Of a DNA stretch of 64,000 bases, positions 18,318 through 40,748 are shown one piece after another. A program made the position numbers and the translations under genes. Origin of the DNA: Thermotoga sp. SG1 (GTDB lineage Bacteria > Thermotogota > Thermotogae > Thermotogales > Thermotogaceae); the NCBI RefSeq assembly GCF_002865985.1, contig NZ_LNDD01000002.1:1-64000 (forward strand), in the 5' to 3' direction. The notes below the pieces were generated by a model that was not told the DNA's origin, did not search any database, and saw only the letters and a program-made list of their open reading frames with translations. Position 1 is the first letter of the stretch. Each line of letters starts with the position of its first letter.

Positions 18318-18336
18318 CAGAAAGTGTACTTAAAAA
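18318..18336 (+). repeat. 19-base element, copy 1 (CAGAAAGTGTACTTAAAAA)
   Basis: Identical over at least 20 bases (with the preceding C) to the copy at 29854. Its core AAGT-GT-ACTT has dyad symmetry. First of a tandem pair upstream of a 28-residue gene. Confidence 0.8.
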
Positions 18337-18395
18337 TTCAGAAGGAAACAAAACAGAGAGGTAACCAAAATGCGTTCGTGGGTTATTTGTGATGT

Positions 18396-18414
18396 CAGAA
18401 AGTGTACTTACAAA
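18396..18414 (+). repeat. 19-base element, copy 2 (CAGAAAGTGTACTTACAAA)
   Basis: One mismatch to copy 1, 78 bases downstream of it. It ends 38 bases before the start codon of the 28-residue gene, and no TATAAT-like hexamer is seen between. The position fits a core promoter or an operator. Confidence 0.78.
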
Positions 18415-18452
18415 TTTGGAGGATGAAACTGAAAAGAAAGGAGGTGAACCAG

Positions 18453-18539
18453 ATGAGTACCATCAAAGTAATTTCGGCGATCTTGACAGGTGTAGCAACG
18501 ACATTAGAAATCATCGAAGAGATTACTGAAGAGTCTTAA
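18453..18539 (+). CDS. 28-residue hydrophobic/acidic peptide
   Basis: A very short open frame with a strong ribosome site (AAAGGAGGTGA, 5 bases before ATG). The peptide begins MSTIKVISAILTG; residues 4-20 are hydrophobic or small and could form one helix, and the last eight are acidic (EEITEES). It forms a complete transcription unit: the paired 19-base element upstream and a terminator 27 bases downstream. No homologue is known to me. It could be a small toxin, a signal peptide or an accessory factor of the polymerase system that shares its upstream element. Coding status rests on the ribosome site and the unit layout. Confidence 0.6.
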   Translation: MSTIKVISAILTGVATTLEIIEEITEES

Positions 18540-18677: not shown

Positions 18678-19100
18678 ATGAAAGTTCTCCAAAAAGAAGG
18701 TATCAGGACCGAACTCAAACAATTTGTTGGAAAAACTGTTAAGATTGTTGGTAATGTGAAAAAATTCGGTGCGACAAGACATCCGTCTTGCAATTATCCA
18801 ACGATGTTATTAACTAATGTTATCGTCAGATACGGAAGCAAATCAGTGAAAATCGATCATCTGTGGACGGTGATAAAAAGATTGCCCCACACTCTTGATA
18901 TAGCAGTTGGGGATAGGATAGGTTTTAAAGCAGATGTTGTCAGGTACAGTCTTTTGCCTGCCTTCAAAAACAAAAATGACATACTGCATTTCAGGTATAA
19001 CTACGGAGTTGCAAACCCAAGGGATTTCAGGATTATCAGGCGTTCAGTTAGATCGAGAAAAAGAACAACTCTGTACGATGCATTTTTGAAAGTCCTGTGA
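18678..19100 (+). CDS. Hypothetical protein, possibly OB-fold nucleic-acid binding
   Basis: 140 basic residues; ATG preceded by GAGGTGGTCAC. VGKTVKIVGNVKKFG, then DHLWTVIKR, AVGDRIGFKADVVRYS and YNYGVANPRDFRIIRR read as alternating beta strands of an OB-like barrel, as in small single-stranded nucleic-acid binding proteins of mobile elements. The C-terminus (RRSVRSRKRTT) is strongly basic. Two cysteines only, no zinc site. It stands alone between the 28-residue gene and cas6. The OB assignment is from pattern, not from a match I can verify. Confidence 0.55.
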   Translation: MKVLQKEGIRTELKQFVGKTVKIVGNVKKFGATRHPSCNYPTMLLTNVIVRYGSKSVKIDHLWTVIKRLPHTLDIAVGDRIGFKADVVRYSLLPAFKNKNDILHFRYNYGVANPRDFRIIRRSVRSRKRTTLYDAFLKVL

Positions 19101-19214
19101 TTCGAAAAATCTGAAGACAAAAAATATCACCATGGGGGGTGTTTAGGAGAATTACACGCTGTGTGACTTACTAATTTAATGATAAAATTATCACAAGAAA
19201 GAAGGGGGTATGAT

Positions 19215-19967
19215 ATGAGGATAAAAATTCATTTTCAAACTACGGAGGCTATAATTCCTCTGAATTACAACTACCTTCTTTCGTCGTTTATCTACAAAAA
19301 GCTGGCTTCTCAGAACGAGAACTTCGCCAAATTTCTTCATGAGAGAGGATACGGAGAAAGATTCAAATTTTTTACTTTCTCTCAACTTTTTTTGGAAAAC
19401 TCAAAGGTGAAGGATGATAAGCTAGTGATATTTCCGGGAAAGGGATGGTGGCACGTATCTTCCCCTGTCGTCGACTTTGTAAGGTATATGTTCTCCTCTC
19501 TATCTGAAAATCCTGTGATAAGAGTTGGAAAGGCAGAATTCGTGGTTCAGTCAATCACAGTTGAAGATTCTCTTCCAGTCCTTTCAGAATACAACTTCAT
19601 CATGATCTCTCCTCTTGTTGTGAGTGTTCCTGAAGAAAAAAACGGGAAACTGGTTCACAGATACCTTCACCCCGGTGAAGAAGGCTTTTACGAGGCTTTC
19701 AAGAGAAACCTGTATAAGAAGTACCGCATCTTTTATGGAAAAGACCCAGAGGGTGATGTAGAAATCATTCCAGATTGGAACTATATAAAATCCAAAGAGC
19801 GTATAACAAAAAGAATCAAGTTGAAAGATGTATTCGTCAGAGCTGTTGTCTTTCCATTTAGAGTAAGGGGTGATAGGAAACTGATAGAGATCGGTTATGA
19901 GGCAGGCTTTGGAGAAAAGAACAGTATGGGATTTGGAATGGTAGCTTTGAAAGGGGGAGAAGCATGA
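19215..19967 (+). CDS. cas6: CRISPR repeat endoribonuclease Cas6
   Basis: 250 residues from ATG 19215 (GAAGGGGGTATGAT upstream; an earlier in-frame ATG at 19179 lacks a ribosome site). Two RAMP folds: N-terminal IKIHFQTTEAIIPLNYNYLLSSFIYKKL with histidine in FLHERGYG as likely general acid/base, and the C-terminal glycine-rich loop GFGEKNSMGFGMV. It cuts the array transcript within the repeat to make crRNAs for all three effector complexes here. It overlaps the CARF gene by 4 bases. Confidence 0.92.
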   Translation: MRIKIHFQTTEAIIPLNYNYLLSSFIYKKLASQNENFAKFLHERGYGERFKFFTFSQLFLENSKVKDDKLVIFPGKGWWHVSSPVVDFVRYMFSSLSENPVIRVGKAEFVVQSITVEDSLPVLSEYNFIMISPLVVSVPEEKNGKLVHRYLHPGEEGFYEAFKRNLYKKYRIFYGKDPEGDVEIIPDWNYIKSKERITKRIKLKDVFVRAVVFPFRVRGDRKLIEIGYEAGFGEKNSMGFGMVALKGGEA

Positions 19968-21106
19968 GGGATCATGTGATTTGTACAGTGGGGGCAAGTC
20001 TTCAAAACAATATCGTTAGGGGTTTGGTCTTTGGTGAGGAAGCCAAGAGGTTTTATGAAGAAGATAGGCTTTCAGAGATATCCAGAATTTTGAGAAAACA
20101 GGATGATCCTCTGAACAACAGAAACTTTGGAGCAGAGATCAACTCTATGGCAAGCATCGTCAAACAGGGAATTGTAGATCAAAGAGAAACACTCTACCTT
20201 CTTGTTTCAGACACTACCGAAGGGGAAAAGATTGGCAAGATTCTAAAAGACTATTTCAAAGAAAACGACCATGAGTTGGACTTTAAAAATGTTCATGTGG
20301 TGAAAGTAGAAGGATTGAACGACAGTGACGAATTCACTTTCAGAAACAAAGGATTGAGAAACCTTATCAGGGAGATGGCGAAGTATGCGAGATTGAATAG
20401 AGAAAGGGTTGTCATCAATGCAACGGGAGGATACAAAGCACAGATAGCCTACGCAGTGGCTCTGGGACAGGCTCTTGGCATACCTGTTTGTTACAGATTT
20501 GATAGATTCAATCACATGGTGGAACTTCCCCCTCTTCCGATAGGCTTAGATCAAAAAATCTACAACGAAAACAAACTGATCTTTACTCTTCTCGACGCTG
20601 CCGGTGAATTAGAACTTTCAGAATTTCTAAAGGTTATTGGGTGGAAAAGCTGGGCAGATGTCCCTGAAAAGATGAAGCTGTTTCTTGATAGAGTACATAT
20701 AGACGGGAAAGACTTTGTTGCTTTGAATCCAATGGGTTTGATCTACGCAGAGAGCGTTGAATGGGACTACTCAGCCATCGATCATCCCATATTCTACTCT
20801 AACAGAGAACCTGAAGAAAAACTGGTTGGCTTTGAAATTCATGGTCAAAAGGTCGTTAAACAGGCTTACAAGATAATTGAAAAGTTGGTTGAACTTCCAT
20901 GGATAAACTCTCTGCACCTGACAGGCAGTTCTGAGAAGAGTTCTGGAAGTTCTATCAGGACACTTGTTCAGGATGGATGTTTAAAGGTAGAACTTTTTAC
21001 AGAAAAAGGAGCACTTTATATGAAAGCCTATTGTAGGTACAGGTCGGATCGTTTTTTGGAAGCTGTAAGATTCAAAGTGGAAAAGGTTCTGTCCGAGAAT
21101 ATCTAA
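19964..21106 (+). CDS. CARF-domain type III CRISPR effector (APE2256-like), possible RelE-like C-terminus
   Basis: 380 residues. The N-terminal CARF domain (1-195) has HVICTVGASLQNNI and VVINATGGYKAQIAYAVALG, the two ligand-loop motifs, and ends MVELPPLPIGLD. Residues about 200-275 look like a small helical/winged-helix middle part. The last ~90 (two helices, then short strands KVELFTEKGALYMKAYCRYRS) could be a RelE-type mRNA interferase as in CARF-RelE (Cami1) proteins, but catalytic residues cannot be confirmed by eye. It should bind cyclic oligoadenylate made by Csm1 or Cmr2. Co-translated with cas6. Confidence 0.85.
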   Translation: MRDHVICTVGASLQNNIVRGLVFGEEAKRFYEEDRLSEISRILRKQDDPLNNRNFGAEINSMASIVKQGIVDQRETLYLLVSDTTEGEKIGKILKDYFKENDHELDFKNVHVVKVEGLNDSDEFTFRNKGLRNLIREMAKYARLNRERVVINATGGYKAQIAYAVALGQALGIPVCYRFDRFNHMVELPPLPIGLDQKIYNENKLIFTLLDAAGELELSEFLKVIGWKSWADVPEKMKLFLDRVHIDGKDFVALNPMGLIYAESVEWDYSAIDHPIFYSNREPEEKLVGFEIHGQKVVKQAYKIIEKLVELPWINSLHLTGSSEKSSGSSIRTLVQDGCLKVELFTEKGALYMKAYCRYRSDRFLEAVRFKVEKVLSENI

Positions 21107-21916: not shown

Positions 21917-23299
21917 TCAGATATCTAGATCTTTTTCAAGGATAATATCCCTATCGGCGATACTAGCTTTTATCAGGGCATTGCTGAGTATTTCTTCAAG
22001 TTCTCTGAAGTTTCCAGTGAAGTTGTGTTTCTCCAGTTTTTTGATAGCTCTCATACTAATGTACCTGACATTTCCTGTATTATAGGGAGATGTGCTCAGA
22101 ACAAAACTGATTAACAATCTAAAATCCTCTTTTCTTTCATTCAGTGACGGAAGCTTTATTCTAAAGAGAAATCTTCTGTAAAGATCTGTTCTAAAGGTGC
22201 CTTTGGTAATCTCATGCTCAAGATCTTTGTTTGTTGCTGCAATAATGATGGTTGGAGCGAAGAACTGTTCTGTTCTTCCAAGTGGTCTGACTTTCAAGTT
22301 ATCAAGATAAAGAAGAAGCTTTGCCTGTGTCTCAGGTGGTAGTTCCCCTATCTCATCCAGAAAAACTACCCCGCCTGAATAGGAGAGAAATTCTCCAGGG
22401 TAGTCCTTCGAGTCGGTAAAACTTCCTTCTGCACTACCAAACAACTCTGTTTCAACGAGATTTCCGAGATTTAGAATAGATATCTTCGAATAAAAGTCAG
22501 AAAATTCCACCTTGTCAATCTTGATGTTTTCATAAATACTTCTTGCTATGAGCTCTGCAAGAAGAGTTTTCCCAGATCCAGTTGGCCCTTCTATGAGAAC
22601 AGAAGGAACAATTCGATAATTTTGCTCAAAATATTTCTCAAAATTAGAAAATTCGATTAGAGATTTCCATTTCTGATCCCCGCTCTTTTCCCATTGATTC
22701 ATTATTTTCTTTCTTTCTTTTAGAATCTCTACCAGTTTAAGTTTTTCATATATTATTCTTAACTGACGTATTATGTATCTTATGTTCTCTACTGTTTTTT
22801 CCATTGCGGGGTCCAGAAACAAGCTCACAAACTTTTTACCACGATCTTCTGCACTGTATTTCCAGTCTATGCTTTTTCTGATTTCTTTCTCTTCGATCTC
22901 ATCTTCTAGAAGATCTCTGATTATTTCCTTTACTCTTGCTTCAAATTTCCCCTTCTCTTCGTATTCTGTCATGAAGTTTTTCTTGGAGAAGATGCCAGAT
23001 ACTGGATAGTCAATAAGGTGGTCTATTAGAGAAGATGGGATGGATTTTTCTACAAAGAACAAAATGCGTTCGAAGTCTTTTTTGTAATGTTCACACACTC
23101 TGGGATCGTCTGTGATGAGTATTATCTTCTGTGATTTTTCAGGGAGTTTTTCATGAACCTCAAATCTTTCCAGTTCCGGCTTTCCCAAATCTTTCGCAAC
23201 TTTTTCTTTGAGGTTTTTGAGGATTTCGCTTACGACGTCTTTCAGATTCGTGTCTCGGAAGAAGATCACTATGTCAACTTTGGAGTTTCTTGAGGACAT
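21917..23299 (-). CDS. Sigma54-activator-like AAA+ ATPase without GAFTGA motif or DNA-binding domain
   Basis: 460 residues. Residues 1-130 resemble a degenerate receiver-like Rossmann domain (VDIVIFFRD, KIILITDD, YPVSGIFSKKNF). The AAA+ core follows: Walker A GPTGSGKT (238-245), ETELFGSAEGSFTDS (283-297), Walker B VVFLDE (311-316), Arg-finger region FRTDLYRRF (369-377) and sensor II NFTGNFRELEE. The loop that contacts sigma54 in true activators (GAFTGA) reads GSFTDS, and the protein stops right after the AAA+ lid with no Fis-type helix-turn-helix. I know of no sigma54 in Thermotoga. It is the last gene of the polymerase operon, so a role in promoter opening for that polymerase is plausible but unproven. 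Confidence 0.82.
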   Translation of the reverse strand: MSSRNSKVDIVIFFRDTNLKDVVSEILKNLKEKVAKDLGKPELERFEVHEKLPEKSQKIILITDDPRVCEHYKKDFERILFFVEKSIPSSLIDHLIDYPVSGIFSKKNFMTEYEEKGKFEARVKEIIRDLLEDEIEEKEIRKSIDWKYSAEDRGKKFVSLFLDPAMEKTVENIRYIIRQLRIIYEKLKLVEILKERKKIMNQWEKSGDQKWKSLIEFSNFEKYFEQNYRIVPSVLIEGPTGSGKTLLAELIARSIYENIKIDKVEFSDFYSKISILNLGNLVETELFGSAEGSFTDSKDYPGEFLSYSGGVVFLDEIGELPPETQAKLLLYLDNLKVRPLGRTEQFFAPTIIIAATNKDLEHEITKGTFRTDLYRRFLFRIKLPSLNERKEDFRLLISFVLSTSPYNTGNVRYISMRAIKKLEKHNFTGNFRELEEILSNALIKASIADRDIILEKDLDI

Positions 23300-23939
23300 G
23301 TTTTTTCACCTCTTTCTTTTTCCTTTCTCCCATGGTAGGATACTCTTCATCCAGCATTTTCTCTAGCTTTTCCTCCAGTTTCGAGGGACTCAAACTCTGC
23401 ACGATTTTAATGTCTTCTAAACGCTTCTCCAAAAAGTGCTCAGCCAGGGATTCTGCACTCTCTTTTTTGGGTCTTCCTTTTGCGGTGAAATAGTTCAAGG
23501 AGTATAGATTTTCTTTGGTCTTTATAACAACACCGTATTTTTTCAGATTCGTTCTTGACTTCCCACCTGAAGTGATGTTTCCCTTTATTTCTTCAATTTC
23601 CTTTCCTTCGTTGAGTTTTTCCGTGATCTCTTCCACAATTTCCCTGTACGGAACCTTTTCATAAGGTTTTGTGAAAAAACATCGATATCCTTTTTTGGTT
23701 TTTAAAATGAAAGCTGCACACTGTAAGGGTTTCTCATACCCCAACGTTTCGATGTTGTATTCTAAATCTCGATAAACAGAGGTTTCTCTTTCGTCATCCC
23801 ATGTGGTGTCCTCTGGTTCTATCTCGAGATACTCATCAGGAGTCTCGTAGACATCAGAGAGTGCGTATCTTCGTTTTTGTTTTTGTGACGTTTTTTGTTC
23901 AGTACTCCTTTCTCTTTTTTGTTTCCTGATTTCAGACAT
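23274..23939 (-). CDS. Hypothetical protein of the RNA polymerase operon
   Basis: 221 residues, highly charged. The first ~30 are basic and low complexity (KQKRERSTEQKTSQKQKRR), then an acidic stretch (DEYLEIEPEDTTWDDERE), a beta-rich middle (CAAFILKTKKGYRCFFTKP) and a helical C-terminus (LEEKLEKMLDEEY). There is no clear helix-turn-helix or zinc site and I recognise no family. It starts 3 bases after the polymerase stop and overlaps the AAA+ gene by 26 bases, so it is made with them. A specificity, clamp-like or sigma-like factor is one possibility; nothing in the sequence proves it. Confidence 0.75.
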   Translation of the reverse strand: MSEIRKQKRERSTEQKTSQKQKRRYALSDVYETPDEYLEIEPEDTTWDDERETSVYRDLEYNIETLGYEKPLQCAAFILKTKKGYRCFFTKPYEKVPYREIVEEITEKLNEGKEIEEIKGNITSGGKSRTNLKKYGVVIKTKENLYSLNYFTAKGRPKKESAESLAEHFLEKRLEDIKIVQSLSPSKLEEKLEKMLDEEYPTMGERKKKEVKKHVLKKLQS

Positions 23940-23942
23940 TTT

Positions 23943-26900
23943 TTATTCCCCCTTCAACTTGTAGGCTGAGAACATGAAGGCTCTGGGATGTTTTTCTTCG
24001 AACGAATCACCTTTCTCGACAAGTTTTACAAGATTGTGCCCGTTTTGATAACTAATGGCCGTTAAAAATCCCCTTTCTTTGAGGAGTTCCTTCATCTTTT
24101 CTTTGTTTTCGTTAGTTCCCCAAGATTTCAATCTGTTCAGGATTTTCCTCTTTCCTTTCTTCATCTCTTCAAAGAGGATTTCAAAGTAGATAAAGTTCAG
24201 GTCTAATTTTTCAAAAATTCCTTTTGAGCTACTAAACAGTTCTCTTATTCTATCTTCATCGATCTCAGTAGAAAGTTTCTTTATGAAACCTACGAAAGAC
24301 TTTGACTCTTCCAGCTTTCTGAAAATGTACGCTCTCACTACAGCCATGTTAAAAGGCTTTCCGGTATGGAAGGTTTCCATTGAAAGCTGCGTTCCTCTCT
24401 CACCTATCGTGTGTCCTGCGTAGACCCCAACGTACTTCACTTCCAGTGGTTTGAACGTTGCAGGATCAAGACCGAAGGATCTTCTGGTGACCTTTCCACC
24501 GATGGGGGAATATATCCTCACCTTCCTGGGGTTTTTTGATATTTCATCCAGGTCGCTCTCTTCTAGAAATTTCCTTTCATCTAGATCGTATCTTCCAAGA
24601 AGGGCGTTTTTCAACAAACCTGTTTCAGAGAGCCACTCGATGTCTTCTAAAGAGTACTCCAGAACACCTTCACCTTCTTCTTCCAAAATAACATCTCCCA
24701 ATATCTCCACAAGTTCTCTGGTGAAATCTCCGGCGTTTGCAACGTGGAGTTTCTTGTCCATAAGGGTTCTTCTTGCCCTTTTAGCTATGTAGTCGATGTA
24801 ATTTTCCAAACTCACACCGTTCAAGAAGTTTTCGTTCAAATGATCTATTTTCTCATTCAATTGGGTATATTGAACTTCGTTTCCACGACATTTCGTCTCC
24901 TTGATTATCTTGAAACTACCTTCGTCCTTCTCTATCTCGTAAATGCTCAGTGTGAGATTTTCTTCGGTAGCTTTTTCAAGAGCTTCTTGTAGGGCATTAA
25001 CAGCCTCATCGAATTTTCCAGATTGTATCAGACCACTGATATACTTCTGGGCTTCCTTTTTGTTTTTTGCTTTTCCAAGTCTGTAGAGTCCATAGACGAA
25101 ATCCTGGTCAACACTAATGGCAAGAGAACCGTTCTCAGGTGTGAAGGGAACGTTTTTAATGGTCATTCTGACAAGTTCTTGAGATTGTTCTATTGGGAAG
25201 TAAACTGCCATTGTGTCTCCATCGAAATCTGCGTTGAATCCTTTGCAGGCAAGTATAGGGAAACCTATTGCCAGTTCGTTCCAAAATCTGAACTTGAATG
25301 CAAGAACACTGTTTTTGTGAAGTGAGGGTTGCCTGTTGAGAAGGACATATTTCCCTTTGGCCCACTTGTTCAGCTCTTCGAGAGAAAGATCTTTTCCAGT
25401 GAATGCCTTTCCAAATTCCGCAGGAAGTAAAACGGTGTCTGGTTCGAGATACGGAGCAGGTACGATCACGCTTCTTCCTGAGTAGAACAACCTTCTTGCG
25501 ATCATTACATTTCTCACATAACCTTCTTTCTTGAAAAGGTTTATAAATTGTTTTTGGTTCTGTTTAGCTAGGGACTCCAAGAAATTGTTGAAATGTTCGT
25601 TTTCAAGAATACTGCTTTTTTCTATCCTTTCAACAATTTTTGTTTTCCCTTCTTCCACTACATAGGAGAAATTCTCTCCGGAAGAATCCTTTCCACCGAG
25701 TTTGTATATGAGAACATTCAATGCCTCGTTCAGTTTAGGTGTTGGATCATAATCTTTTGTATTGCATCTTCTGAAAACTTCCAGGGTTTTGAAAGCATTA
25801 TGCTCCAGAAGGCACCAAAATTCCATCTCACCGAACCTCTGACCACCTTTTCTTCTTCTTCCTTTGAAAGGTTGGAACGTTATAGGACTGATAGGTGCAT
25901 TTCGACCTATCACGTGTATTTTGTCACCCACGCAGTGATCGAGTCTGATGATGTACTGAAACCCGGCAAGTGCTCTTATTTCTCTGCCTTCGAATCTCAC
26001 TCTGTATCTTCCAAGCTCATCTGCACCAAGATCTCTCAACCTTTCTAGGATGTTCTTTCTTTCTTCGTCCGAGAATCTGTAATTCATAGGAAAGACGCTT
26101 TGATACAGGCCTTTTTTTATCAGAGGAGATATGGTAGTTTCATAAAGTTGTCCCAGGTTCATTCGGGAAACTACACCAAGTGGACTCAGAAGGACTTCTG
26201 CTTTTTGCCACCGACCGTCGATGAACACCTCCGGCATTTTTTCATCTGGCAAGATTTTACTCACTACTCCCTTGTTTCCATGTCTTCCCGATAATTTGTC
26301 TCCCACTTTGAGAGGTTTTATCACTTTCAAACGAAATTCGATCAGCATTTCGCTTTCTTCTTTGCTCTGAGCCTTGAAAGGATATTTGGGAGGATGAATT
26401 TTTATGGTTTCAATTACTGCATCGTAGTATCCCTCGTATCGCTTTGTCACCTTTTTGATATTTTTTCCATTTTCGTAGATCGACATTTCGACCAACGTAT
26501 CCCCTCTTCTTATCTTTGAACCTATATCTTTACACAGCCGAACTTCCGTTTTTATTTCGTTCGATTTCTTAGACGCCTCCCATGAAAAAACGATTGTGTT
26601 TCCTTTTTCTTCGATTTCCGACGGGAAAATGCCCATCAGAGTCACTTTGTAGGTTTCCTCAACTTCGGAAAGCATCTTCTTGGCGAAAGACTCACTGACC
26701 ACTATACCATCTTCGAAGTTCAATCCCTTATAGAGCATGTAAACTACAAAGGCATTTACACCTAACTTCAGACTCTTTTCGGCTTTGACGATCGGTTCTT
26801 CTGGATTCTTCAACGGCATGGCTTGTTTCAGATTTTTAGAACCCATCAGAACGCGTGCACCATCTGAGTGGAGTATGAATGGAATCTGATACGTGGCAAG

Positions 26901-27638
26901 ACTGAAGAGATCTCCTTCCTCTATCGAAAGTGTTTCAGGGTTGAAACTTGCATTTTCTGTGAGGGAAAGGAGAAGCCCAATCTTTTCCGATTCAGGCGTT
27001 TCAAAAAGATCCACTCTTCGAACGTGACTTTCATGTGGATAGCGCATGCTCTCTGGAACTTTTTCTCGTGGGTAAACCACTTTCTTTGCCAGAAAATTTC
27101 TTTCAAGATCGTTTAAGTTTTCGAGGTCCTGAAATACGAGTATCTTTACTCCGTAGGTCTTTTTTTCTTTTCTGAATACAGGGCAGAAGAGGGCTCCTTT
27201 TTTACCATAGAGCTTGTTTAAATGAGGTTCTGCTTTTTCTAGCTTCCCGGATGACAAATAGTAAAACAAAGTGGATGCAACTGCAAACAGATAGCCGGGC
27301 GCTACTTTGTGCGCATCAAGATTCATCACTCTGTTTTCTTCAAGTGTTGGTTCTTCCTCATTCTCTTCATCCTCTTCATTTGCCGCTTTGAAATCCGGTA
27401 TTATCACATAAGGAGTCACAAGTTTTTCTCCAAGAGCGATATAAACGTTCTCCTCGTTCGGAAACAAGAGTGGAAATTCGATTGCCTTATCATTAGCGGA
27501 GAATCTGACGATGCACGATGTATCGTTTTCCACTTCTTCCTGAATTTCTATTGAGAACTCTGGATTCACCCCAAACTGTTTTGAAAGGAAATTCAAAAGA
27601 TTCTTCAACACCGTTGTGGAAAACTCTGCCCCTTTCAT
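23943..27638 (-). CDS. Single-chain DNA-directed RNA polymerase: fused, trimmed beta and beta-prime cores
   Basis: 1231 residues. Beta-type blocks in order: HESHVRRVDLFETPE (202-216), LMGSKNLKQAMP (264-275), GLNFEDGIVVSE (305-316), GDKLSGRHGNKGVVSK (446-461), LSPLGVVSRMNLGQ (484-497) and GGQRFGEMEFW (598-608). Beta-prime blocks: YSGRSVIVPAP (719-729), LLNRQPSLHKN (766-776), catalytic NADFDGD (802-808, D804/D806/D808), bridge helix LHVANAGDFTRELVEIL (964-980), trigger loop TIGERGTQLSMETFHTG (1077-1093) and a C-terminal GFLTAISYQNGHN. Only ~100 residues separate the halves, so the beta-prime zinc ribbon, clamp and sigma-docking coiled coil are absent; the beta lobes are also reduced. Its ATG overlaps the CARF-HD stop. 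It should be an active, specialised polymerase, unlike the cellular two-subunit enzyme. Confidence 0.93.
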   Translation of the reverse strand: MKGAEFSTTVLKNLLNFLSKQFGVNPEFSIEIQEEVENDTSCIVRFSANDKAIEFPLLFPNEENVYIALGEKLVTPYVIIPDFKAANEEDEENEEEPTLEENRVMNLDAHKVAPGYLFAVASTLFYYLSSGKLEKAEPHLNKLYGKKGALFCPVFRKEKKTYGVKILVFQDLENLNDLERNFLAKKVVYPREKVPESMRYPHESHVRRVDLFETPESEKIGLLLSLTENASFNPETLSIEEGDLFSLATYQIPFILHSDGARVLMGSKNLKQAMPLKNPEEPIVKAEKSLKLGVNAFVVYMLYKGLNFEDGIVVSESFAKKMLSEVEETYKVTLMGIFPSEIEEKGNTIVFSWEASKKSNEIKTEVRLCKDIGSKIRRGDTLVEMSIYENGKNIKKVTKRYEGYYDAVIETIKIHPPKYPFKAQSKEESEMLIEFRLKVIKPLKVGDKLSGRHGNKGVVSKILPDEKMPEVFIDGRWQKAEVLLSPLGVVSRMNLGQLYETTISPLIKKGLYQSVFPMNYRFSDEERKNILERLRDLGADELGRYRVRFEGREIRALAGFQYIIRLDHCVGDKIHVIGRNAPISPITFQPFKGRRRKGGQRFGEMEFWCLLEHNAFKTLEVFRRCNTKDYDPTPKLNEALNVLIYKLGGKDSSGENFSYVVEEGKTKIVERIEKSSILENEHFNNFLESLAKQNQKQFINLFKKEGYVRNVMIARRLFYSGRSVIVPAPYLEPDTVLLPAEFGKAFTGKDLSLEELNKWAKGKYVLLNRQPSLHKNSVLAFKFRFWNELAIGFPILACKGFNADFDGDTMAVYFPIEQSQELVRMTIKNVPFTPENGSLAISVDQDFVYGLYRLGKAKNKKEAQKYISGLIQSGKFDEAVNALQEALEKATEENLTLSIYEIEKDEGSFKIIKETKCRGNEVQYTQLNEKIDHLNENFLNGVSLENYIDYIAKRARRTLMDKKLHVANAGDFTRELVEILGDVILEEEGEGVLEYSLEDIEWLSETGLLKNALLGRYDLDERKFLEESDLDEISKNPRKVRIYSPIGGKVTRRSFGLDPATFKPLEVKYVGVYAGHTIGERGTQLSMETFHTGKPFNMAVVRAYIFRKLEESKSFVGFIKKLSTEIDEDRIRELFSSSKGIFEKLDLNFIYFEILFEEMKKGKRKILNRLKSWGTNENKEKMKELLKERGFLTAISYQNGHNLVKLVEKGDSFEEKHPRAFMFSAYKLKGE

Positions 27639-29800
27639 TTCACAAGCACCTCCAGTTCGAAATCCGTAAGTTCAGCACTTTCCTTCTCCCTCTCTATTTC
27701 CTCTTTTATAGATTTCATTTCACTTTCGGCGTTGAATTCCGGATTTTTGAAGATCTTTATGAGAAGTTTTTTCGTTTTCTCATCGAATCTTGCAGGGAAC
27801 ACTGTGCTGACCGCTTTGTGTTTATCAAAGTGAACAAACTGCCTTGCTTTGAAAGCAATCTTGAAGAGGATTTCAGCTGTTCGAGAGGATAGTATTCTTT
27901 TTTTGTCACTTTCTAAAAGTTTGTAGAGGTAACTCTCCAATTCCTTTGAAATTTCTTCCATCTTTCTGGATCTATCTGGGCTTAACAGATCAATGTTCAA
28001 ATTGTAGATTTCTTCGATCTTATCCTGGATCGATCGAAACTCTTCCTTTTCCTTTTGATCGATCATAAGCCACTTTCTATACAGATAGTTTATTTCCTTT
28101 GAAGTCCTTTCGACTCTCATCCTCTGATAACTTTCTGTGACGGTTCGATCTGCCTGAACGTCCAGCCCATCGATGAATCTCAACCACTGAGCTGCTTTTA
28201 TGACTATTTTACGTAATTTCTCATCTTCTATCTGTTTTGCTTCATCGACAAGCGGTGATATTTTTATTTTGAAAGCCCTTGTAAGTATCTCCATTGTTTT
28301 GTTCAGAGTACTTTTCTGATAGATTGGTAAATGCTTTCTGTGATAGCGGCATACCAGTTTTATAGCGTTTACTACTTCTTCTTTTTTTTCACCAAAGATT
28401 TCTTTCAAAGATTTGGCGTTTTTGAACCCTTCGTCGATCCCCAAGACGTTGTATTCACCGCTCTCAATAAGGCTCACGGTGAGTTCGTTGTGCAGATCTC
28501 TTATGAGGGAAGGGAAACCTTCCAGAATGTACTCTCCGTCCGATGTTTTCAAGATCGGGTAGACATGACCAAGGTCGTGAACGTAGATGGCAACACCTAG
28601 AATGAAAAGGAACATATCCCTGTATGAAATCCCGTTTACATACTTACCTTCCAGATCTATTTCTTCGGATACTTTTTCAAGTCCCATCGTTCTGATGATG
28701 TGGTATGCTAGATTCATCAACCTTCTACTGTGTCTTTGAGAATGTTCAACGGTTTCAGGGATCTGATCACCTATCCACATGTACGACCAAACACGCTTTA
28801 TTCCCTCTCTTAAGTAACTTTTCAGTTCTTCAGAATCGATTATGTTTATGTACCTTTCTCCGTAGTCGAAAGGGACATCTCGTTTTTCTTTGTACAACTC
28901 CTTTATCTCGTTTAGAGGATAGTAAGAAACGGAACCATCTAGATATATGTCCTGAAGCTCCGAAGGAATATCAAGAAGGTCCATCTGCTCTGCCTGAATG
29001 AATGGAAGAATCTCATCAAGATAGGAATAATCCCAATCCATACCAAAAGGAGGTATTTCGAGTGTTTCTTGACTCCCTTCAAAGGAATAGAAAGCGTTTC
29101 TCCTGCTGTGAAAGGACATCACCGAGGTGATCAAAGTAACTATCTTGTAGGAGGCTGTTGCATTGAAAAGAACCGTTTTATCTTTCTCTCTATTTATCAG
29201 CTCTTTCAAGACTTTCCAAAGGTCAACAAAGAGAGAAGAATAACTTCCTCTATCTGCTGGGGAGAATTCTTTTTTAATTTCTTCCATACTTATGTTGATG
29301 TTTTCTTTGAATACTTCTTTCAACTTTTCAAGATGTTCATACTTTTTATTCTTATCGGGGAACGCTATCAGAACGATTTTATCGATGGCAAAGCCACTTT
29401 TGATTATTCCAACAAAAGAGCTAACTTCTGCTGGAAGCTCCTGTAATTCCAGTTTTGCTTCCCAGAGCATTTTTATTCTTTTCAGATGATTTTCCTCAGA
29501 GAAAATGGGTTTTATATCTTTCAAGGCTTTTTCCATATTTCTCTTAGTAAGTACGGAGGTGCCTATGGGACAGATGAGAGTGGCAGGGCTTTTGAGTATG
29601 TTCTTCGCCAGTTTTATAGCTTCAAAGAGAGAAAATCCAGAGAATTCTTCTTTTTCACCGTCTGTTTCTATAACTATCATATCTTTTTTTCTATAGTCTA
29701 TGGGCTTTCCAGAATAAGAAAAAGAAAATCCAATCTTGGAGGAGTATCTTATAGTGATTGTTACATCAGAAGATTTTGAAAAAACACGTGCGACTTTCAC
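27635..29800 (-). CDS. CARF-HD protein (cyclic-oligonucleotide sensor fused to HD hydrolase)
   Basis: 721 residues from GTG 29800, which has GGGGGG 7 bases upstream. A longer frame to ATG 29914 would run through the promoter region and a copy of the 19-base element and is rejected. N-terminal CARF-like domain: TLICPIGTSVLTKRN (~75-89) and VLFNATASYKIVTLI (~210-224), then LEIPPFGMDWD, mirroring the CARF gene at 19964. C-terminal HD domain: H353/H357 (HSQRHSRR), YVHDLGH (~406-412), LHNELT (~436) and CRYHRKHLP (~484-491), then a long helical tail. It may cut nucleic acid, or degrade the signal. First gene of the operon with the fused RNA polymerase. Confidence 0.85.
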   Translation of the reverse strand: MKVARVFSKSSDVTITIRYSSKIGFSFSYSGKPIDYRKKDMIVIETDGEKEEFSGFSLFEAIKLAKNILKSPATLICPIGTSVLTKRNMEKALKDIKPIFSEENHLKRIKMLWEAKLELQELPAEVSSFVGIIKSGFAIDKIVLIAFPDKNKKYEHLEKLKEVFKENINISMEEIKKEFSPADRGSYSSLFVDLWKVLKELINREKDKTVLFNATASYKIVTLITSVMSFHSRRNAFYSFEGSQETLEIPPFGMDWDYSYLDEILPFIQAEQMDLLDIPSELQDIYLDGSVSYYPLNEIKELYKEKRDVPFDYGERYINIIDSEELKSYLREGIKRVWSYMWIGDQIPETVEHSQRHSRRLMNLAYHIIRTMGLEKVSEEIDLEGKYVNGISYRDMFLFILGVAIYVHDLGHVYPILKTSDGEYILEGFPSLIRDLHNELTVSLIESGEYNVLGIDEGFKNAKSLKEIFGEKKEEVVNAIKLVCRYHRKHLPIYQKSTLNKTMEILTRAFKIKISPLVDEAKQIEDEKLRKIVIKAAQWLRFIDGLDVQADRTVTESYQRMRVERTSKEINYLYRKWLMIDQKEKEEFRSIQDKIEEIYNLNIDLLSPDRSRKMEEISKELESYLYKLLESDKKRILSSRTAEILFKIAFKARQFVHFDKHKAVSTVFPARFDEKTKKLLIKIFKNPEFNAESEMKSIKEEIEREKESAELTDFELEVLVK

Positions 29801-29831
29801 ATAGATCCCCCCATTCGTTGTACTCGTGTTT

Positions 29832-29837
29832 ATTTTA
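29832..29837 (-). promoter_or_regulatory. Candidate -10 of the CARF-HD/RNA polymerase operon
   Basis: On the minus strand TAAAAT lies about 30 bases before the GTG start. Where a -35 hexamer should be (16-17 bases upstream) the 19-base element ends instead, so the element would overlie the -35 region of this operon. Confidence 0.4.
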
Positions 29838-29853
29838 ACATGATCCTGTGTGC

Positions 29854-29872
29854 CAGAAAGTGTACTTAAAAA
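29854..29872 (+). repeat. 19-base element, copy 3 (CAGAAAGTGTACTTAAAAA)
   Basis: Exact copy of the element at 18318, in the divergent region between the RNA polymerase operon and the DUF1232 gene. Confidence 0.82.
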
Positions 29873-29926
29873 CATGGAAAAATTTTCAGATTGGCAGACT
29901 TCCAGGAAAATCATAAAACGGTTTGT

Positions 29927-29945
29927 CGGAAAGTGTACTTAAAAA
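29927..29945 (+). repeat. 19-base element, copy 4 (CGGAAAGTGTACTTAAAAA)
   Basis: One mismatch to copy 3 and 73 bases downstream of it. It ends 30 bases before the DUF1232 start codon, with only a ribosome site between, so it takes the place of a promoter. Both copies 3 and 4 are followed by CATGGAA. Confidence 0.82.
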
Positions 29946-29975
29946 CATGGAACAACACTAGAAGGAGGTGGTTCG

Positions 29976-30317
29976 ATGGACTACTTAGATAATTACAAAA
30001 GAGACAACATCTCGGAATCAGAACTGAACGCTGCGGCAAGAAAAGCGGAAAAGAAGAAGAATGTGCTCGGCAAGGCTTTTCAAAAGTTCAAAGATCTCTG
30101 GGCACTCCTCGAAGCAGTCATGAGTGGGAGAATGAAGATACCGGGAAAGACCAAGGCAATAATCATAGGAGCTATTCTGTACTTTCTCATACCTACTGAT
30201 CTCATAGCAGATTTTATACCAGCTGTAGGCTACATAGATGATATAACGGTCATTGCAATGGTCTACAACGAAGTGAAAGACCTCATAATGAAAGCTAAGA
30301 GCAAAGGGATCATCTAA
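29976..30317 (+). CDS. DUF1232 (YkvA-like) small membrane protein
   Basis: 113 residues, ATG after AGAAGGAGGTGG. The N-terminal 55 residues are charged and helical; KTKAIIIGAILYFLIPTDLIADFIP and AVGYIDDITVIAMVYNEV form the DUF1232 signature with a hydrophobic helical hairpin. Function of the family is unknown; members are seen next to toxins and in stress loci. It is divergent from the RNA polymerase operon, carries the tandem 19-base element as its only visible promoter, and has its own terminator. Confidence 0.85.
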   Translation: MDYLDNYKRDNISESELNAAARKAEKKKNVLGKAFQKFKDLWALLEAVMSGRMKIPGKTKAIIIGAILYFLIPTDLIADFIPAVGYIDDITVIAMVYNEVKDLIMKAKSKGII

Positions 30318-30417: not shown

Positions 30418-32583
30418 TTGAGCGACACAGAGAGGGAGGAAATAGTTCTGGGTGCTCTCATTCACGATGTGGGAAAGGTTGTGAGAAGAGCGGAAAAAAG
30501 CGCAGAAAAACATCAACTGGCAGGGTATGATTTCACAAACAAAGCAAAGAAGTTTGCAAAGTTCCAAAAATACATACACTATCACCATGAAAAAGATCTT
30601 AAAGAAAAGAAGTTAGATGATGAAAAGGTTTGGTATGTGTGCTTTGCGGACAATCTGTCCAGCAGTGAAAGAATGACTGAGGGAGGCAGGTTCAACGAAC
30701 ATCGCAGGATAGAAAATCTTCTTTCAAAGATTCCTGAAAAGGAAAACGCAAGAAAGCCTACCTACTTCCCCGTTAAGTCCGCAGACAGAATAACAGAGGC
30801 TGTCACTGAAATGGAAGAAGAAGAGAAAAGTCACATTGATCTTTATGAATCGTTCGTTAAAGATGCAGAGAAGATAACCCTATCTCCAGATGATGTGAAT
30901 TTCCTTGTGTACAAGTATTTCTCCTTCATTCCTCAGGAAACCAAAGTGGAAGGAGACATGGATATTTCTCTCTACGACCATTTGAAGGTCACGGCCATGC
31001 TCGCCATTTCCCTGTACGATTACGCGAAGGAAAATAACCTAACGTTCCGAACTTACGATGAGATGAAGAACTATTTCAAAAATCCCGCTGTGAAACCCTT
31101 CCTCCTTGTGGGAGGAGACGTTTCTGGAATACAGAACTTCATCGCCAGTGTTTCTTCAAAGGGAGCTCTCAGGTCTTACAGAGGAAGGAGTTTCTTCATA
31201 GAAATCCTTCAAGAAGTTGTTGTGGATGAGATTCTTGAAAGAACGGGCTTTTACAGAACGAACGTTCACTTCATAGGCGGTGGTCACTTCTATATTGTTC
31301 TTTCCAACACAGAAAAGGTGAAGAAGGCTCTTGAAGGTATCAGAAAGGAGCTGAACGCCTGGTTTAGAAAGAAAGGGCTTTCACTCCATCTTGTGATGGA
31401 ATACACACAGTTTTCAGCGAATGATGTCAGCGACATGAAAAATATCTTCGATGACATAGTAAAGAAGGTGAACCTGAGAAAACTCAGAATGTACACAGAA
31501 GAAGACCTCGAAGAACTTTTCCCGGACGATCTTTCTTCGATTACAGAAAGGGGAAGTTTTACGTGTAAAGTGTGTGGAAACAGGGTTGAAAAGCTCTTCA
31601 CCCTAGGCGATAGTGAAGAAGAAATAGCCTGTGATTTCTGCAGAGAAATGTACGAACTCGGAAAAGATCTTCTCAAGAAAGATCACGTTTATATCGTTGA
31701 AAAGGAAAATGGAAAGTTCGAGATCTTCGACAAACACTTCGAGTTCTCTAAAAAACCAGAAAAAGGTGCTTACAAAATAAGAGACATATATCAGTTCTCA
31801 GAAAACGAAGAAAACGTCAGAAGAATCCAGGTGATAACGTATTTCGAGCACCAAGAGTTCGAGGAGATCGCAAAAGAAGCACCTGGAAAGAAGATAGCAA
31901 GCCTTCTTGTTGACGTTGACAATCTGGGAAGGATCTTTCGTGATGGTCTTAAAAGAAAAACCCTTTCAAGATACAGCACACTTTCAAGGCTCATGAGTTT
32001 CTTCTTCAAAGAAAGGGTTGAAAAAATTGTCGAGGGAAAAAACGTAATGGTGATCTATTCTGGAGGAGACGACCTCTACCTTGTTGGAGGCTGGAACGAT
32101 GTGCTCGATGTTGCTAAACAATTGAGAGAGGAGTTTTCGAAGTTTACGACGAACGACTTCATCACCTTCTCTGCAGGCTATGTTATAACAGACGAAAAAA
32201 CGAGTATGAGACTCATAAGAGAGATGTCCGAAAGGGCAGAAAGTTCTGCAAAAAGATCAGGAAAGAACAGCATCGCATTCTCGAGCAAAAACTACTATGC
32301 CGTTAGCTGGGAGATGTTCTTCAAAATGTACGAAGTTTATTCGGAGTTGAAGGAACTTGCAACGAAAGTGGACAGAAGCGTTATCAGGAAGGCTCTCAAA
32401 CTCACACAAGAGGACACCCCTCTCAACAGAGCCTTTCTTGCCTACATAGAAGCAAGAGAGAACAAAGAAGAGGACAAAAGAGTGGCCAGTCTGACAAGAG
32501 AAAAACTCGAAGAACTCGGAGAAGACAGTTTGAACGTAATTCTCCAGTTTGTAGATCTTCTTGCAAGGAAAAAGGAGGGATGA
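30418..32583 (+). CDS. csm1: Type III-A Cas10/Csm1, HD nuclease and cyclase subunit
   Basis: 721 residues, TTG start after GGGGGTGA. N-terminal HD nuclease ALIHDVGKVV (H16-D17), first palm GGDVSGIQNFI, a treble-clef zinc site CKVCGN / CDFCREM (~381-412), and the second palm with intact YSGGDDLYLVG (GGDD at about 549-552). It should cut single-stranded DNA and make cyclic oligoadenylate from ATP when the Csm complex finds target RNA. The helical C-terminal domain follows. First gene of csm1-5, spaced 3 bases from csm2. Confidence 0.95.
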   Translation: MSDTEREEIVLGALIHDVGKVVRRAEKSAEKHQLAGYDFTNKAKKFAKFQKYIHYHHEKDLKEKKLDDEKVWYVCFADNLSSSERMTEGGRFNEHRRIENLLSKIPEKENARKPTYFPVKSADRITEAVTEMEEEEKSHIDLYESFVKDAEKITLSPDDVNFLVYKYFSFIPQETKVEGDMDISLYDHLKVTAMLAISLYDYAKENNLTFRTYDEMKNYFKNPAVKPFLLVGGDVSGIQNFIASVSSKGALRSYRGRSFFIEILQEVVVDEILERTGFYRTNVHFIGGGHFYIVLSNTEKVKKALEGIRKELNAWFRKKGLSLHLVMEYTQFSANDVSDMKNIFDDIVKKVNLRKLRMYTEEDLEELFPDDLSSITERGSFTCKVCGNRVEKLFTLGDSEEEIACDFCREMYELGKDLLKKDHVYIVEKENGKFEIFDKHFEFSKKPEKGAYKIRDIYQFSENEENVRRIQVITYFEHQEFEEIAKEAPGKKIASLLVDVDNLGRIFRDGLKRKTLSRYSTLSRLMSFFFKERVEKIVEGKNVMVIYSGGDDLYLVGGWNDVLDVAKQLREEFSKFTTNDFITFSAGYVITDEKTSMRLIREMSERAESSAKRSGKNSIAFSSKNYYAVSWEMFFKMYEVYSELKELATKVDRSVIRKALKLTQEDTPLNRAFLAYIEARENKEEDKRVASLTREKLEELGEDSLNVILQFVDLLARKKEG

Positions 32584-32586
32584 GAC

Positions 32587-32988
32587 GTGGAGGTTTCTCT
32601 CAAAAGCGATTTGATGGATCTTGTGAAAAAGGCAGAGGAGATTGGGAAAAACCTTTCCAACACAAACCAACTCAGAAAATTCCACGGACACCTGACAAAG
32701 ATATGGAGCAAGTACGCTTACAACAGAAGAAAGTACAGTCAGAACCAGCAAGCATTCAAAGAGGATATTCTGAATGAAGTCCATTTCATGAAGATATTTC
32801 TTGCTTATCAGGCCGGCAGGGGTGTTTCCGAAGACATCAAAAAACTCAGAAAAGTTCTTGAACCACTCATAGATGAGATAAAAACGCCAGAAGATTTCGA
32901 GAAATTCAAAAAGTTCTACGATGCAGTTCTTGCGTACCACAAGTTCTATTCTGAAACCGCAAGGAATAGCAGATCAGTGAGAAAGTGA
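32587..32988 (+). CDS. csm2: Type III-A Csm2 small subunit
   Basis: 133 residues, all alpha-helical and basic (LRKFHGHLTKIWSKYAYNRRKYSQNQ; FLAYQAGRGVSEDIKKL), as expected for the Csm2 small subunit that lines the crRNA-target duplex. GTG start after GGAGGGATGAG. Position between csm1 and csm3 confirms it. Confidence 0.88.
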   Translation: MEVSLKSDLMDLVKKAEEIGKNLSNTNQLRKFHGHLTKIWSKYAYNRRKYSQNQQAFKEDILNEVHFMKIFLAYQAGRGVSEDIKKLRKVLEPLIDEIKTPEDFEKFKKFYDAVLAYHKFYSETARNSRSVRK

Positions 32989-33001
32989 GGAGGGATGAGC
33001 G

Positions 33002-33772
33002 GTGGAGAGACCGATTCATGGAAAGTACATTATAAAAGGAAAGATCATCTTAAAAACAGGTCTCAGAGTGGGTGGTCAAGAACTCGGTGTGAACATCGGA
33101 GGAGTTGATAATCCTGTTATCAGAAATCCTCTTACCGGCGAACCTTACATTCCAGGAAGCTCCATAAAGGGAAAGATGAGAAGTCTGATGGAAAGATTGA
33201 AAAATAAGGATCTCGTACCTATAGTTGATGGGAGTACTAAGATAAGTATTCACATTTGCAAAGAAAAAGATTGTGAGATATGTCGCCTTTTTGGAGCATC
33301 TGGAAAATTAGATAATGAGAAGAGGATAAGCATTCCTTCTCGTCTTATCGTAAGAGATGCCTTTCTCACGGAAGAGTCGAAAGACAGACTCCTCAACATG
33401 GAAACAGATCTTCCATATACGGAATGGAAAACAGAAAACGCTCTTGATAGGGTCACATGCAGTGCTGTTCCAAGACCGGTCGAAAGAGTTCCTGCAGGTG
33501 CAGAATTTGAATTTGAAATTGTTTACACTGCAGAGAACAAAGAACATATAAAAGAAGACCTTGAAAACATAGCAACCGCACTTGAACTCGTCGAAGACGA
33601 CTATCTTGGGGGAAGTGGAAGCAGAGGATACGGGAAGGTTGAGTTCAAAATAGAAGAGTTGATCTTCAAGAGTTCAGACTACTACCTTGGAAAAGAAGAT
33701 CCAAAATCGAAAACTCTTAAAGGAGATATCGAAGACTTCAAGAAAGCTATCTCTGAACTTGTGAAAGGGTGA
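33002..33772 (+). CDS. csm3: Type III-A Csm3 (Cas7-like backbone RNase)
   Basis: 256 residues. RAMP fold: KGKIILKTGLRVGG, IPGSSIKGKMRSLMERL, the GASG motif within CRLFGASGK, and the glycine-rich loop LGGSGSRGYGKVEF. D34-region GVDNPVIRNP probably holds the conserved aspartate that cleaves target RNA every six bases. The zinc-like pair CKEKDCEIC is present. GTG start after GAGGAGGGATGAG. Confidence 0.93.
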   Translation: MERPIHGKYIIKGKIILKTGLRVGGQELGVNIGGVDNPVIRNPLTGEPYIPGSSIKGKMRSLMERLKNKDLVPIVDGSTKISIHICKEKDCEICRLFGASGKLDNEKRISIPSRLIVRDAFLTEESKDRLLNMETDLPYTEWKTENALDRVTCSAVPRPVERVPAGAEFEFEIVYTAENKEHIKEDLENIATALELVEDDYLGGSGSRGYGKVEFKIEELIFKSSDYYLGKEDPKSKTLKGDIEDFKKAISELVKG

Positions 33773-33777
33773 TAGAA

Positions 33778-34665
33778 GTGCGCCTTCTTGTGAAAATGAA
33801 TTTCCGGGGTGGTTTCAGGGTGGGAAGGGGGGATGAATCCGATTCCACCCTCCCCACCATTCACTCTGATACCATCTACGGGGCTATTGTGTATCATGCG
33901 TTTAAACATTCGGATAAAGCAGAAGATTTTGCAAAAAATCTAAAGGTTTCCTCCCTTATTTTCCTTAAAAAATCTGACAAAAAAGAGCGCCTTCTTGTTC
34001 CAAAGCCTCTTTCGTACAACGTTCTTGATCCAGAGGATGAAGACAGCAAGAAGGGAGACTTCAAGAAATTGAAAAAAGCGAACTATGTATTTCTGGACAG
34101 TCTTAAGGATTACACATCGATAGAAAAGGCAATGGAATCTGTATGTGAAGAGTCTCCGGTAGAAGTTTCAAGAATACCAAGAAACACTCTGGACAGAGTC
34201 ACAAACTCTTCAAACCTTTATTTTGTTGAGGTTGCTTTTGTAAAAGAAAGCTTCACACCAGTTGTACTGGCGGAGTTTCCAGACGAATACGAGGAATTAT
34301 TCAAGGCTTCTGTGAGATCTCTTGGTGACAGCGGACTTGGTGGAGATTCAACTTACGGATACGGTTTGTTCGATGCAGACTTTGAAGAAGCTCCCTTTCT
34401 TTCGGAAGAAGGAAAATACTATCTTTCTCTGTCTCTTTTTATACCTTCTGTTGAAGAAAGAAGAAGATTGAACGAAGGCTTCTACAAAGTGGTAAGAAGA
34501 AGAGGCGTGAAAAAAGACGTTATGAAGGTTAAAAAAGAACTCCACTATATCCAAGAAGGTTCCGTATTTCCTTTCAAACCTGTGGGCCGTGGGGTGTTGA
34601 AGATAGAAGATTATTTCGTTCAGACCTCACCACTCTGTGTGGCATTCGGTGGTGATGCATCATGA
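33778..34665 (+). CDS. csm4: Type III-A Csm4 (Cas5-like)
   Basis: About 295 residues. RAMP protein with MNFRGGFRVGRG, SDTIYGAIVYHAF and the glycine-rich GDSGLGGDSTYGYGLF; it binds the 5' handle of the crRNA and docks to Csm1. Start chosen at GTG 33778 because AAAGGGTGAT then has normal spacing; GTG 33769, which overlaps the csm3 stop, is the alternative. Overlaps csm5 by 4 bases. Confidence 0.9.
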   Translation: MRLLVKMNFRGGFRVGRGDESDSTLPTIHSDTIYGAIVYHAFKHSDKAEDFAKNLKVSSLIFLKKSDKKERLLVPKPLSYNVLDPEDEDSKKGDFKKLKKANYVFLDSLKDYTSIEKAMESVCEESPVEVSRIPRNTLDRVTNSSNLYFVEVAFVKESFTPVVLAEFPDEYEELFKASVRSLGDSGLGGDSTYGYGLFDADFEEAPFLSEEGKYYLSLSLFIPSVEERRRLNEGFYKVVRRRGVKKDVMKVKKELHYIQEGSVFPFKPVGRGVLKIEDYFVQTSPLCVAFGGDAS

Positions 34666-40685: not shown

Positions 40686-40716
40686 AGCCTCAATCCTTCC
40701 TTTTTGGGTATAGGCA
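40686..40716 (+). repeat. Decayed CRISPR repeat beyond the array end
   Basis: GCCTCAATCCTTCCTTTTTG followed by GGTATAGGCAC keeps the order and spacing of the repeat with several changes. It lies 20 bases after the last recognisable repeat and suggests an older, eroded tail. Confidence 0.6.
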
Positions 40717-40729
40717 CCGAACTTTTTGG

Positions 40730-40748
40730 CGGAAAATGTGCCTAAAAA
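40730..40748 (+). repeat. Degenerate fifth copy of the 19-base element
   Basis: CGGAAAATGTGCCTAAAAA differs from copy 4 (29927) by three transitions in 19 bases and is also followed by an AT-AGAAACA tail like CATGGAACA there. It is 128 bases upstream of cas8b, first gene of the I-B/III-B operon. Confidence 0.45.

Follow-up and report, generated by a model that had tools for sequence, protein, structure and literature searches.

The window analysed here, a 64,000-nucleotide stretch of Thermotoga sp. SG1 (assembly GCF_002865985.1, contig NZ_LNDD01000002.1, positions 1 to 64,000 of the forward strand), contains a CRISPR (clustered regularly interspaced short palindromic repeats) locus in which a gene on the minus strand, 23943 to 27638, encodes what is, judged by its sequence, a single-chain RNA polymerase (RNAP) of the multisubunit (msRNAP) type with an intact active centre. 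We consider this polymerase together with two genes downstream of it and a promoter-like element that recurs in the locus. The 1231-residue frame is in one piece, starts at ATG and has no internal stops. Its β blocks precede its β′ blocks, as an earlier reading made from the letters alone (the sequence-only reading) had proposed, and the Pfam matches fall in that order (RNA_pol_Rpb2_6, E = 6e-40; Rpb1_2, E = 2.6e-21; Rpb1_5, E = 1.4e-8); by sequence, the best relatives in the Protein Data Bank are β and β′ subunits.

The polymerase family and its CRISPR linkage

The active-centre elements that the sequence-only reading had called intact are invariant in an alignment of 15 family members. These comprise the aspartates of the NADFDGD catalytic loop (D804, D806 and D808), the GDK/GRHGNKG lysines K448 and K456 together with RQP, and the bridge-helix and trigger-loop residues R954, D961-K963 and G1079-E-x-G-T-Q-x-x-M-x-x-F1090. 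The presence of both bridge helix and trigger loop was also evident from a hidden Markov model match to the host's own RpoC (domains 3 and 4). When the family profile was mapped onto RpoB (1301 residues) and RpoC (1701 residues) of the same genome (locus L043), matches extended from ~560 to 1260 in the former and, with gaps, from ~596 to 1357 in the latter. RpoC residues 1 to ~595, comprising the β′ zinc ribbon, clamp and coiled coil, have no match in the family and are replaced by a ~60-residue linker that is longer and unconserved in some members; behind the trigger loop, where ~130 residues remain in the single-chain enzyme, there is no collinear RpoC match. Because the matches begin only at these points, most of the β lobes and the zinc-ribbon, clamp and coiled-coil regions are without counterpart, much as first described, and the β′ parts on which a cellular core relies to bind sigma70 are among those that the enzyme lacks. 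We infer that the single-chain RNAP synthesizes RNA.

Relatives of the polymerase are found in 27 of 103 Thermotogota genomes, with a patchy spread (only 2 of the 7 genomes of the window's genus carry one), and the copy in G005 is broken. The 26 sequences placed in trees, that of the window and 25 from relatives, are monophyletic (FastTree support 1.0; IQ-TREE ultrafast bootstrap 100), and the clade groups with RNAPs of viral contigs and not with bacterial RNAP, although its long stem means that long-branch attraction may be at work. A phage-polymerase origin of the family is plausible from these sequence comparisons. The sister group in the tree, viral contigs L159-L202 from IMG/VR, encodes small split RNAPs in which β′ (~900 residues) is followed by β (~1000 residues). 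A single-protein search of genome contigs with the RNAP returned no matches; among the matches listed from an alignment-based search of genome contigs there was only canonical-type rpoB, the patterns being generic; and the phage and plasmid records searched gave only partial canonical-type matches.

As the sequence-only reading stated, the polymerase gene lies between cas6 (19179 to 19967, plus strand; Pfam Cas_Cas6_C, 5e-35) and a type III-A csm operon (30418 to 36331, plus strand) with Cas10/Csm1 first (NCBIfam TIGR02578, 572 bits), Csm3, Csm5 and Csm4. A CARF protein of the Csm6-like family Cas_APE2256 is encoded at 19964 to 21106 on the plus strand (Pfam, 3.7e-35). Linkage of this kind recurs elsewhere and speaks against a phage gene with no CRISPR association, the outcome that the same reading had named as its refutation. 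Of the 27 loci, at least 21 include cas or CARF genes in the ~10 kb of sequence retrieved, among them cas6, csm, cmr, type I cas, cas1/cas2, Csm6-like CARF and CARF-CYTH-HD genes. The Cas10 palm was detected with strong scores in 19 of the 27 hosts of the polymerase module, compared with 30 of the 76 other genomes (Fisher P = 0.005). Two neighbourhood observations may be added: the window and G037 share a conserved 140-residue protein of no named family (window 18678 to 19100), next to cas6 in both, and at L033:6203-7573 a DarT gene and a NADAR-DarT1-type antitoxin gene lie directly upstream of the polymerase gene on the same strand.

Constant partners of the polymerase

In the window, the polymerase operon opens with a CARF-CYTH-HD gene (27635 to 29914, minus strand; PADLOC CARF7 CARF_CYTH_HD, 1082 bits from residue 27), the real start of which is probably downstream of 29914. 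It overlaps the polymerase gene by 4 nucleotides. The partnership is not constant, however, since the two genes share an operon only in the window and one relative, and in most relatives the CARF-CYTH-HD gene is elsewhere in the locus or absent. The constant partners are instead encoded by two same-strand genes downstream of the polymerase (23274 to 23939 and 21917 to 23299), overlooked in the sequence-only reading, which complete a conserved module. Where a locus offers enough sequence, the RNAP gene almost always precedes one for a 220- to 314-residue protein, behind which comes one for a sigma54-activator-type AAA+ ATPase of 430 to 490 residues; two short G042 contigs have no small protein called.

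The small protein (221 residues in the window, minus strand) is recognized by its position between RNAP and AAA+, which it occupies in 22 aligned loci despite fast sequence divergence. Its retained features are a Q/K/R-rich tail at the N terminus, an acidic linker, a β hairpin, another hairpin that closes with a GRP-like motif and a helical C terminus, the hairpins being read off the alignment with no trusted model behind them. Profile searches yielded no credible family for it, and none of 20 members has a Pfam match to the core-binding or DNA-binding domains of RpoN; the likeness of its Q-rich tail and acidic stretch to sigma54 is only an analogy. We propose that the small protein may be a specificity factor of the RNAP.

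The AAA+ ATPase (460 residues in the window, minus strand; Pfam Sigma54_activat, 7e-34, and AAA_lid_14) keeps Walker A, Walker B and arginine-finger motifs and a variant of the GAFTGA loop across the family alignment, which ends after the AAA lid; the C-terminal helix-turn-helix (HTH) is absent. It is the sole protein of its class in the window's genome (545 bits, the next AAA+ scoring 41 bits). No match to sigma54 (PF04552) was found in the window's genome, G040 or G042. Because the window's host is without sigma54, the AAA+ must act there on another partner, for which the adjacent RNAP and small protein are the obvious candidates. Models of the AAA+ and the small protein folded without alignments were poor (predicted local distance difference test scores of 34.7 and 51.5) and were not used.

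The promoter-like element and its cargo

A conserved block emerged when the sequence upstream of the window's operon was compared with that of a 63%-identical relative, G040. In module loci the element has the consensus RAAAGTGT-(N)-AAA-(N)-TTGRA and stands 32 to 58 nucleotides ahead of Shine-Dalgarno-led start codons. The block of the window, GAAAGTGTACTTAAAAACATGG, occurs on the plus strand in two pairs, 18320/18398 and 29856/29929. The first pair consists of a distal copy, GAAAGTGTACTTAAAAATTCAG (18320 to 18343), and a proximal copy, GAAAGTGTACTTACAAATTTGG (18398 to 18421), and in the second pair both the distal (29856 to 29879) and the proximal copy (29929 to 29952) read GAAAGTGTACTTAAAAACATGG. 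Behind each proximal copy come a Shine-Dalgarno sequence, an ATG (55 nucleotides on in the first pair and 47 in the second) and an open reading frame (ORF) with its own terminator. The first ORF encodes a 28-residue hydrophobic peptide, MSTIKVISAILTGVATTLEIIEEITEES (18453 to 18539, plus strand; Shine-Dalgarno GGAGGTG, then a hairpin-T terminator), and the second, cargo between the divergent operons, a 113-residue small membrane protein of the DUF1232 family (29976 to 30317, plus strand; Pfam DUF1232, 4e-13). The pattern GAAAGTGTACNTNNAAA has four matches in the host genome, all in the window, four in G040, confined to the 45-kb CRISPR contig of that genome, and two in G005, beside its module; the backward control gave 6 matches in total across the 103 genomes. 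Apart from these, a degenerate copy, GAAAATGTGCCTAAAAATATAG, lies upstream of the type I cas8 operon (window 40700 to 40760), and a copy upstream of csm1 in G040 (L009:16869-17000) possibly serves a 21-residue ORF with a poorly spaced Shine-Dalgarno sequence. Pattern-fitting sites within cas4 ahead of cas1 (46644; L009 7447) are coding and were set aside, and a reading of the paired element as a miniature CRISPR array was rejected, since its copies are unlike the local CRISPR repeat.

The element is oriented with respect to the module. In the 350 bp divergent from it at 25 loci, AAGTGT[AG] points away from the RNAP at 14 sites and toward it at none, with 1.2 expected each way, and without the two loci that were the source of the motif the count is 10 against 1.0 expected (P = 1.6e-7); these figures are not fully blind, the regions having been partly read by eye, nor fully independent, some loci being close relatives. 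TATAAT points toward the RNAP gene at 19 sites, against 2.6 expected, and is absent from the element-bearing divergent regions, so the RNAP gene appears to be driven by sigmaA and its divergent neighbour to use the other element. AAAGTGT followed by a Shine-Dalgarno sequence and a start codon at +28 to +62 is present 22 times in module loci, about five of these sites being doubtful because they lie within coding sequence, whereas 60 permuted cores gave a mean of 2.65 and a maximum of 8 (0/60).

The core recurs in distant families, and the element also has variants. That of G069 and G074, AAAAAGTGTGATTAYNAA, has nine matches in the 103 genomes (backward control, 0), of which all three in G069 and all four in G074 are at the module itself or in its CRISPR region, one is in G052 and one in the module-less G059. 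The G052 match, in another family, had no part in building the motif and is independent in that sense; it lies 26 kb from the module, near Cas10 genes, and heads a 50-residue hydrophobic peptide at +54. In the RNAP subclade of G012, G021 and G022, the variant TTGTCATA has three of its four matches at the module loci of these genomes and one in another genome. The variants of the element therefore track the polymerase lineage. A composite motif pattern, too stringent for the purpose, gave no matches.

The genes behind the element vary. One slot, bounded by cas6 and a flanking gene that stays the same, holds the 28-residue peptide in the window's genome (G000), an 83-residue basic protein in G040, and peptides of 30 and 39 residues together with a DUF1232 relative in G037. 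The hydrophobic cargo peptides span 28 to 63 residues. A hydrophobic 17-residue stretch (Kyte-Doolittle ≥1.6) is present in 7 of 8 cargo peptides of 28 to 65 residues, as opposed to 9.6% of random ORFs of the same size; the eighth, a Cys-rich 57-residue ORF, is plainly non-hydrophobic and unscored. Small cargo that changes fast behind an unchanging element is as expected of toxins, and these products may be toxic. In G069 and G074, the divergent cargo directly behind the element is DarT (9.6e-33 in G069), with a macro-domain protein next in G069. Other cargo includes cas2 in G077, which adds a further CRISPR-linked locus, cmr1 in G052, besides the peptide there, and a helicase in G064 for which PADLOC gives the label 'poss. 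alt. Cas3'. A primase-polymerase (CAPP) operon takes this place in G022 and, judging by gene order, in G021; its Cas1- and Cas2-like matches are weak. By family assignment the cargo is defence-related, beyond toxins alone.

Three loci or groups of loci deserve separate mention. At L017 and L018 (G021 and G022), the module is divergent from genes for a TOTE-type primase (CAPP), a Cas2-like protein, a radical SAM protein, Argonaute and a Cas1-like protein. In G003 and G005 (L011:5700-6640 and L015:15690-16950), three small genes of about 106, 120 and 70+ residues stand behind element copies, beside the AAA+ gene, and the two of them that were tested had no credible family match. In G037, C1:688000-706000 (L240) is a decayed form of the window locus, with the csm1 match cut to 474 residues and csm2-5 and the polymerase module absent.

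Interpretation and comparison with known systems

The sequences establish the identity of the polymerase, the triad, the CRISPR linkage, the lack of sigma54 in the window's host and an element with a consistent orientation, spacing and clustering. From these parts and their co-location we infer every causal step of the following scheme. We would give an even chance to the reading that RNAP, small protein and AAA+ form a dedicated immune transcription machine, transcribing defence and toxin cargo from promoters of its own. A phage-like two-barrel RNAP would be made from an ordinary sigmaA promoter and held idle until the AAA+ N-terminal domain or a CARF partner senses infection, most likely via type III CRISPR signalling as the trigger. 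The AAA+ would then remodel the small protein bound to the RNAP, as enhancer-binding proteins do with sigma54, and the licensed RNAP would read the element, opening the AAAGTGT promoter (the TTGTCATA variant in one subclade) to produce mRNA for cargo otherwise silent under the host polymerase: hydrophobic peptides, DUF1232 proteins and toxins of the DarT type, with cas genes added in some hosts. Such an arrangement suggests that bacterial immunity can run a private transcription machine. The wider proposal, which we advance tentatively and would sooner expect to see revised than confirmed, is of a third layer of CRISPR immunity, in which infection triggers a private RNAP through an AAA+ protein and an initiation factor unrelated to sigma70 or sigma54, with its own class of promoter and swappable toxin or defence cargo that neither the host nor a phage hijacking the host RNAP could transcribe.

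Several observations count against a dedicated transcription machine. The link between RNAP and element is one of co-location, and the same sites could serve a DNA-binding regulator of the host RNAP. One intact element stands ahead of cas8 in each of G036 and G039, which have no module, and the decayed G037 locus retains cas6 and two element-plus-peptide units; the G036 and G039 elements could be relics of a lost module, as in G037. The element was not found for the f10 subclade (G083, G086, G089 and G097) or for G067 and G071, and no clear Cas10 accompanies the module in G003 and G010. Sigma54 is present in many hosts of other families. The N-terminal domain of the AAA+ matched no CARF, receiver or other credible family in profile searches, so that sensing of cyclic oligoadenylate by this protein is a guess. 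Cas2, Cmr1 and the helicase are not toxin-like cargo. Finally, association across genomes gave Fisher P values of 0.11 (two or more element matches versus module presence) and 0.05 (G069 variant versus module), statistics that are only suggestive because each pattern is lineage-specific.

The main rival, unlikely in our view yet deserving serious attention, takes the element as an operator or activator site for the host RNAP and assigns the single-chain RNAP to another task, such as transcribing CRISPR arrays or foreign DNA. Paired copies 71 to 108 bp apart do resemble operators, and intact copies stand ahead of cas8 in the module-less G036 and G039, but no conserved regulator gene accompanies the loci besides the triad, the copies stand at promoter distance from Shine-Dalgarno sequence and start codon, the variants track the polymerase lineage, and TATAAT is missing from the element-bearing divergent regions. 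Type III complexes need target RNA, and the polymerase might supply it by transcribing invader DNA non-specifically, exposing silent phages to these complexes. Although the CRISPR linkage and the absent sigma-docking clamp region would fit such surveillance, we think it improbable, for it leaves the oriented element, the cargo and the sigma54-activator-type ATPase unexplained. Somewhat less probable again is RNA-templated synthesis, by which the enzyme would copy CRISPR RNA or target RNA and amplify guides or signal. Cellular RNA-dependent RNA polymerases of the same fold act in this way in eukaryotic RNA silencing, and the two-barrel fold without a clamp and the CAPP primase and Argonaute adjoining in G022, with similar gene order in G021, would suit it; by sequence, however, its nearest kin are DNA-dependent RNAPs of phages and bacteria, and the promoter-like element also counts against it. 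That the module is a passive or mobile phage polymerase island with no immune role, as the viral-contig relatives and the broken G005 copy might suggest, is very improbable given the defence-type cargo and the retention, in many Thermotogota families, of a triad whose catalytic sites are intact and whose loci mostly adjoin cas or CARF genes.

If the dedicated machine exists, its consequences would be considerable. The type III effectors known so far act by cleaving nucleic acids, by harming membranes or proteins, or by using a sigma factor to redirect the host polymerase. A private polymerase would let immunity work once host transcription is shut off or commandeered by a phage and would keep lethal cargo strictly silent until needed. 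It would also provide a minimal heat-stable orthogonal polymerase-promoter pair and an AAA+-activated initiation system outside sigma54, and the element would become a marker for new toxin genes.

We found no published description of a CRISPR-linked single-chain RNA polymerase in the open-access literature, where an earlier mention is possible, and the promoter-like element and its apparent link to the module are, as sequence findings, new here. The nearest functional analogue is CalpL-CalpT-CalpS, a type III CRISPR system in which a Lon protease activated by cyclic tetra-adenylate frees a sigma factor (PMC11229360, PMC12751052). Both are type III-linked and answer infection with a transcriptional programme, but Calp redirects the host polymerase by a sigma factor, whereas the Thermotogota module has a separate RNAP, an AAA+ remodeller and a distinct promoter-like element. 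The sequence-only reading had likened the polymerase to trimmed RNAPs of the YonO type, a likeness that did not hold: the family has a trigger loop and aligns to β/β′ over ~700 columns, whereas YonO of phage SPbeta has no detectable trigger loop and few alignable active-site residues (PMC5467207). YonO has in common with the Thermotogota RNAP that it is a single-chain DNA-dependent RNAP distantly related to msRNAP; going by its published description, it is set apart as a phage late-gene polymerase from a chromosomal, CRISPR-linked enzyme with full β/β′ core blocks. The nearest relatives by sequence are the polymerases of mReC Caudovirales (PMC7481178) and the msRNAPs of viral contigs (IMG/VR L126-L205). 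The viral-contig enzymes are fused (~2100 residues) or split (~900 + 1000 residues) β′/β with longer β′ N-terminal parts and, unlike those of the Thermotogota module, have no small protein or matching AAA+ alongside. With RtcR and other sigma54 enhancer-binding proteins (CARF-AAA+-HTH), the module AAA+ shares the variant GAFTGA loop, Walker A/B motifs and arginine fingers; unlike RtcR, it has neither an HTH nor a recognizable CARF domain, its host in the window is without sigma54, and its fixed partner is a single-chain RNAP. A dedicated polymerase in Thermotogota type III loci is also known from the CAPP-Cas1-Cas2-Argonaute operon, for which CAPP, a primase-DNA polymerase, has been proposed to act in adaptation (PMC8211822), and this operon is the divergent neighbour of the module in G022 and, judging by gene order, of that in G021.

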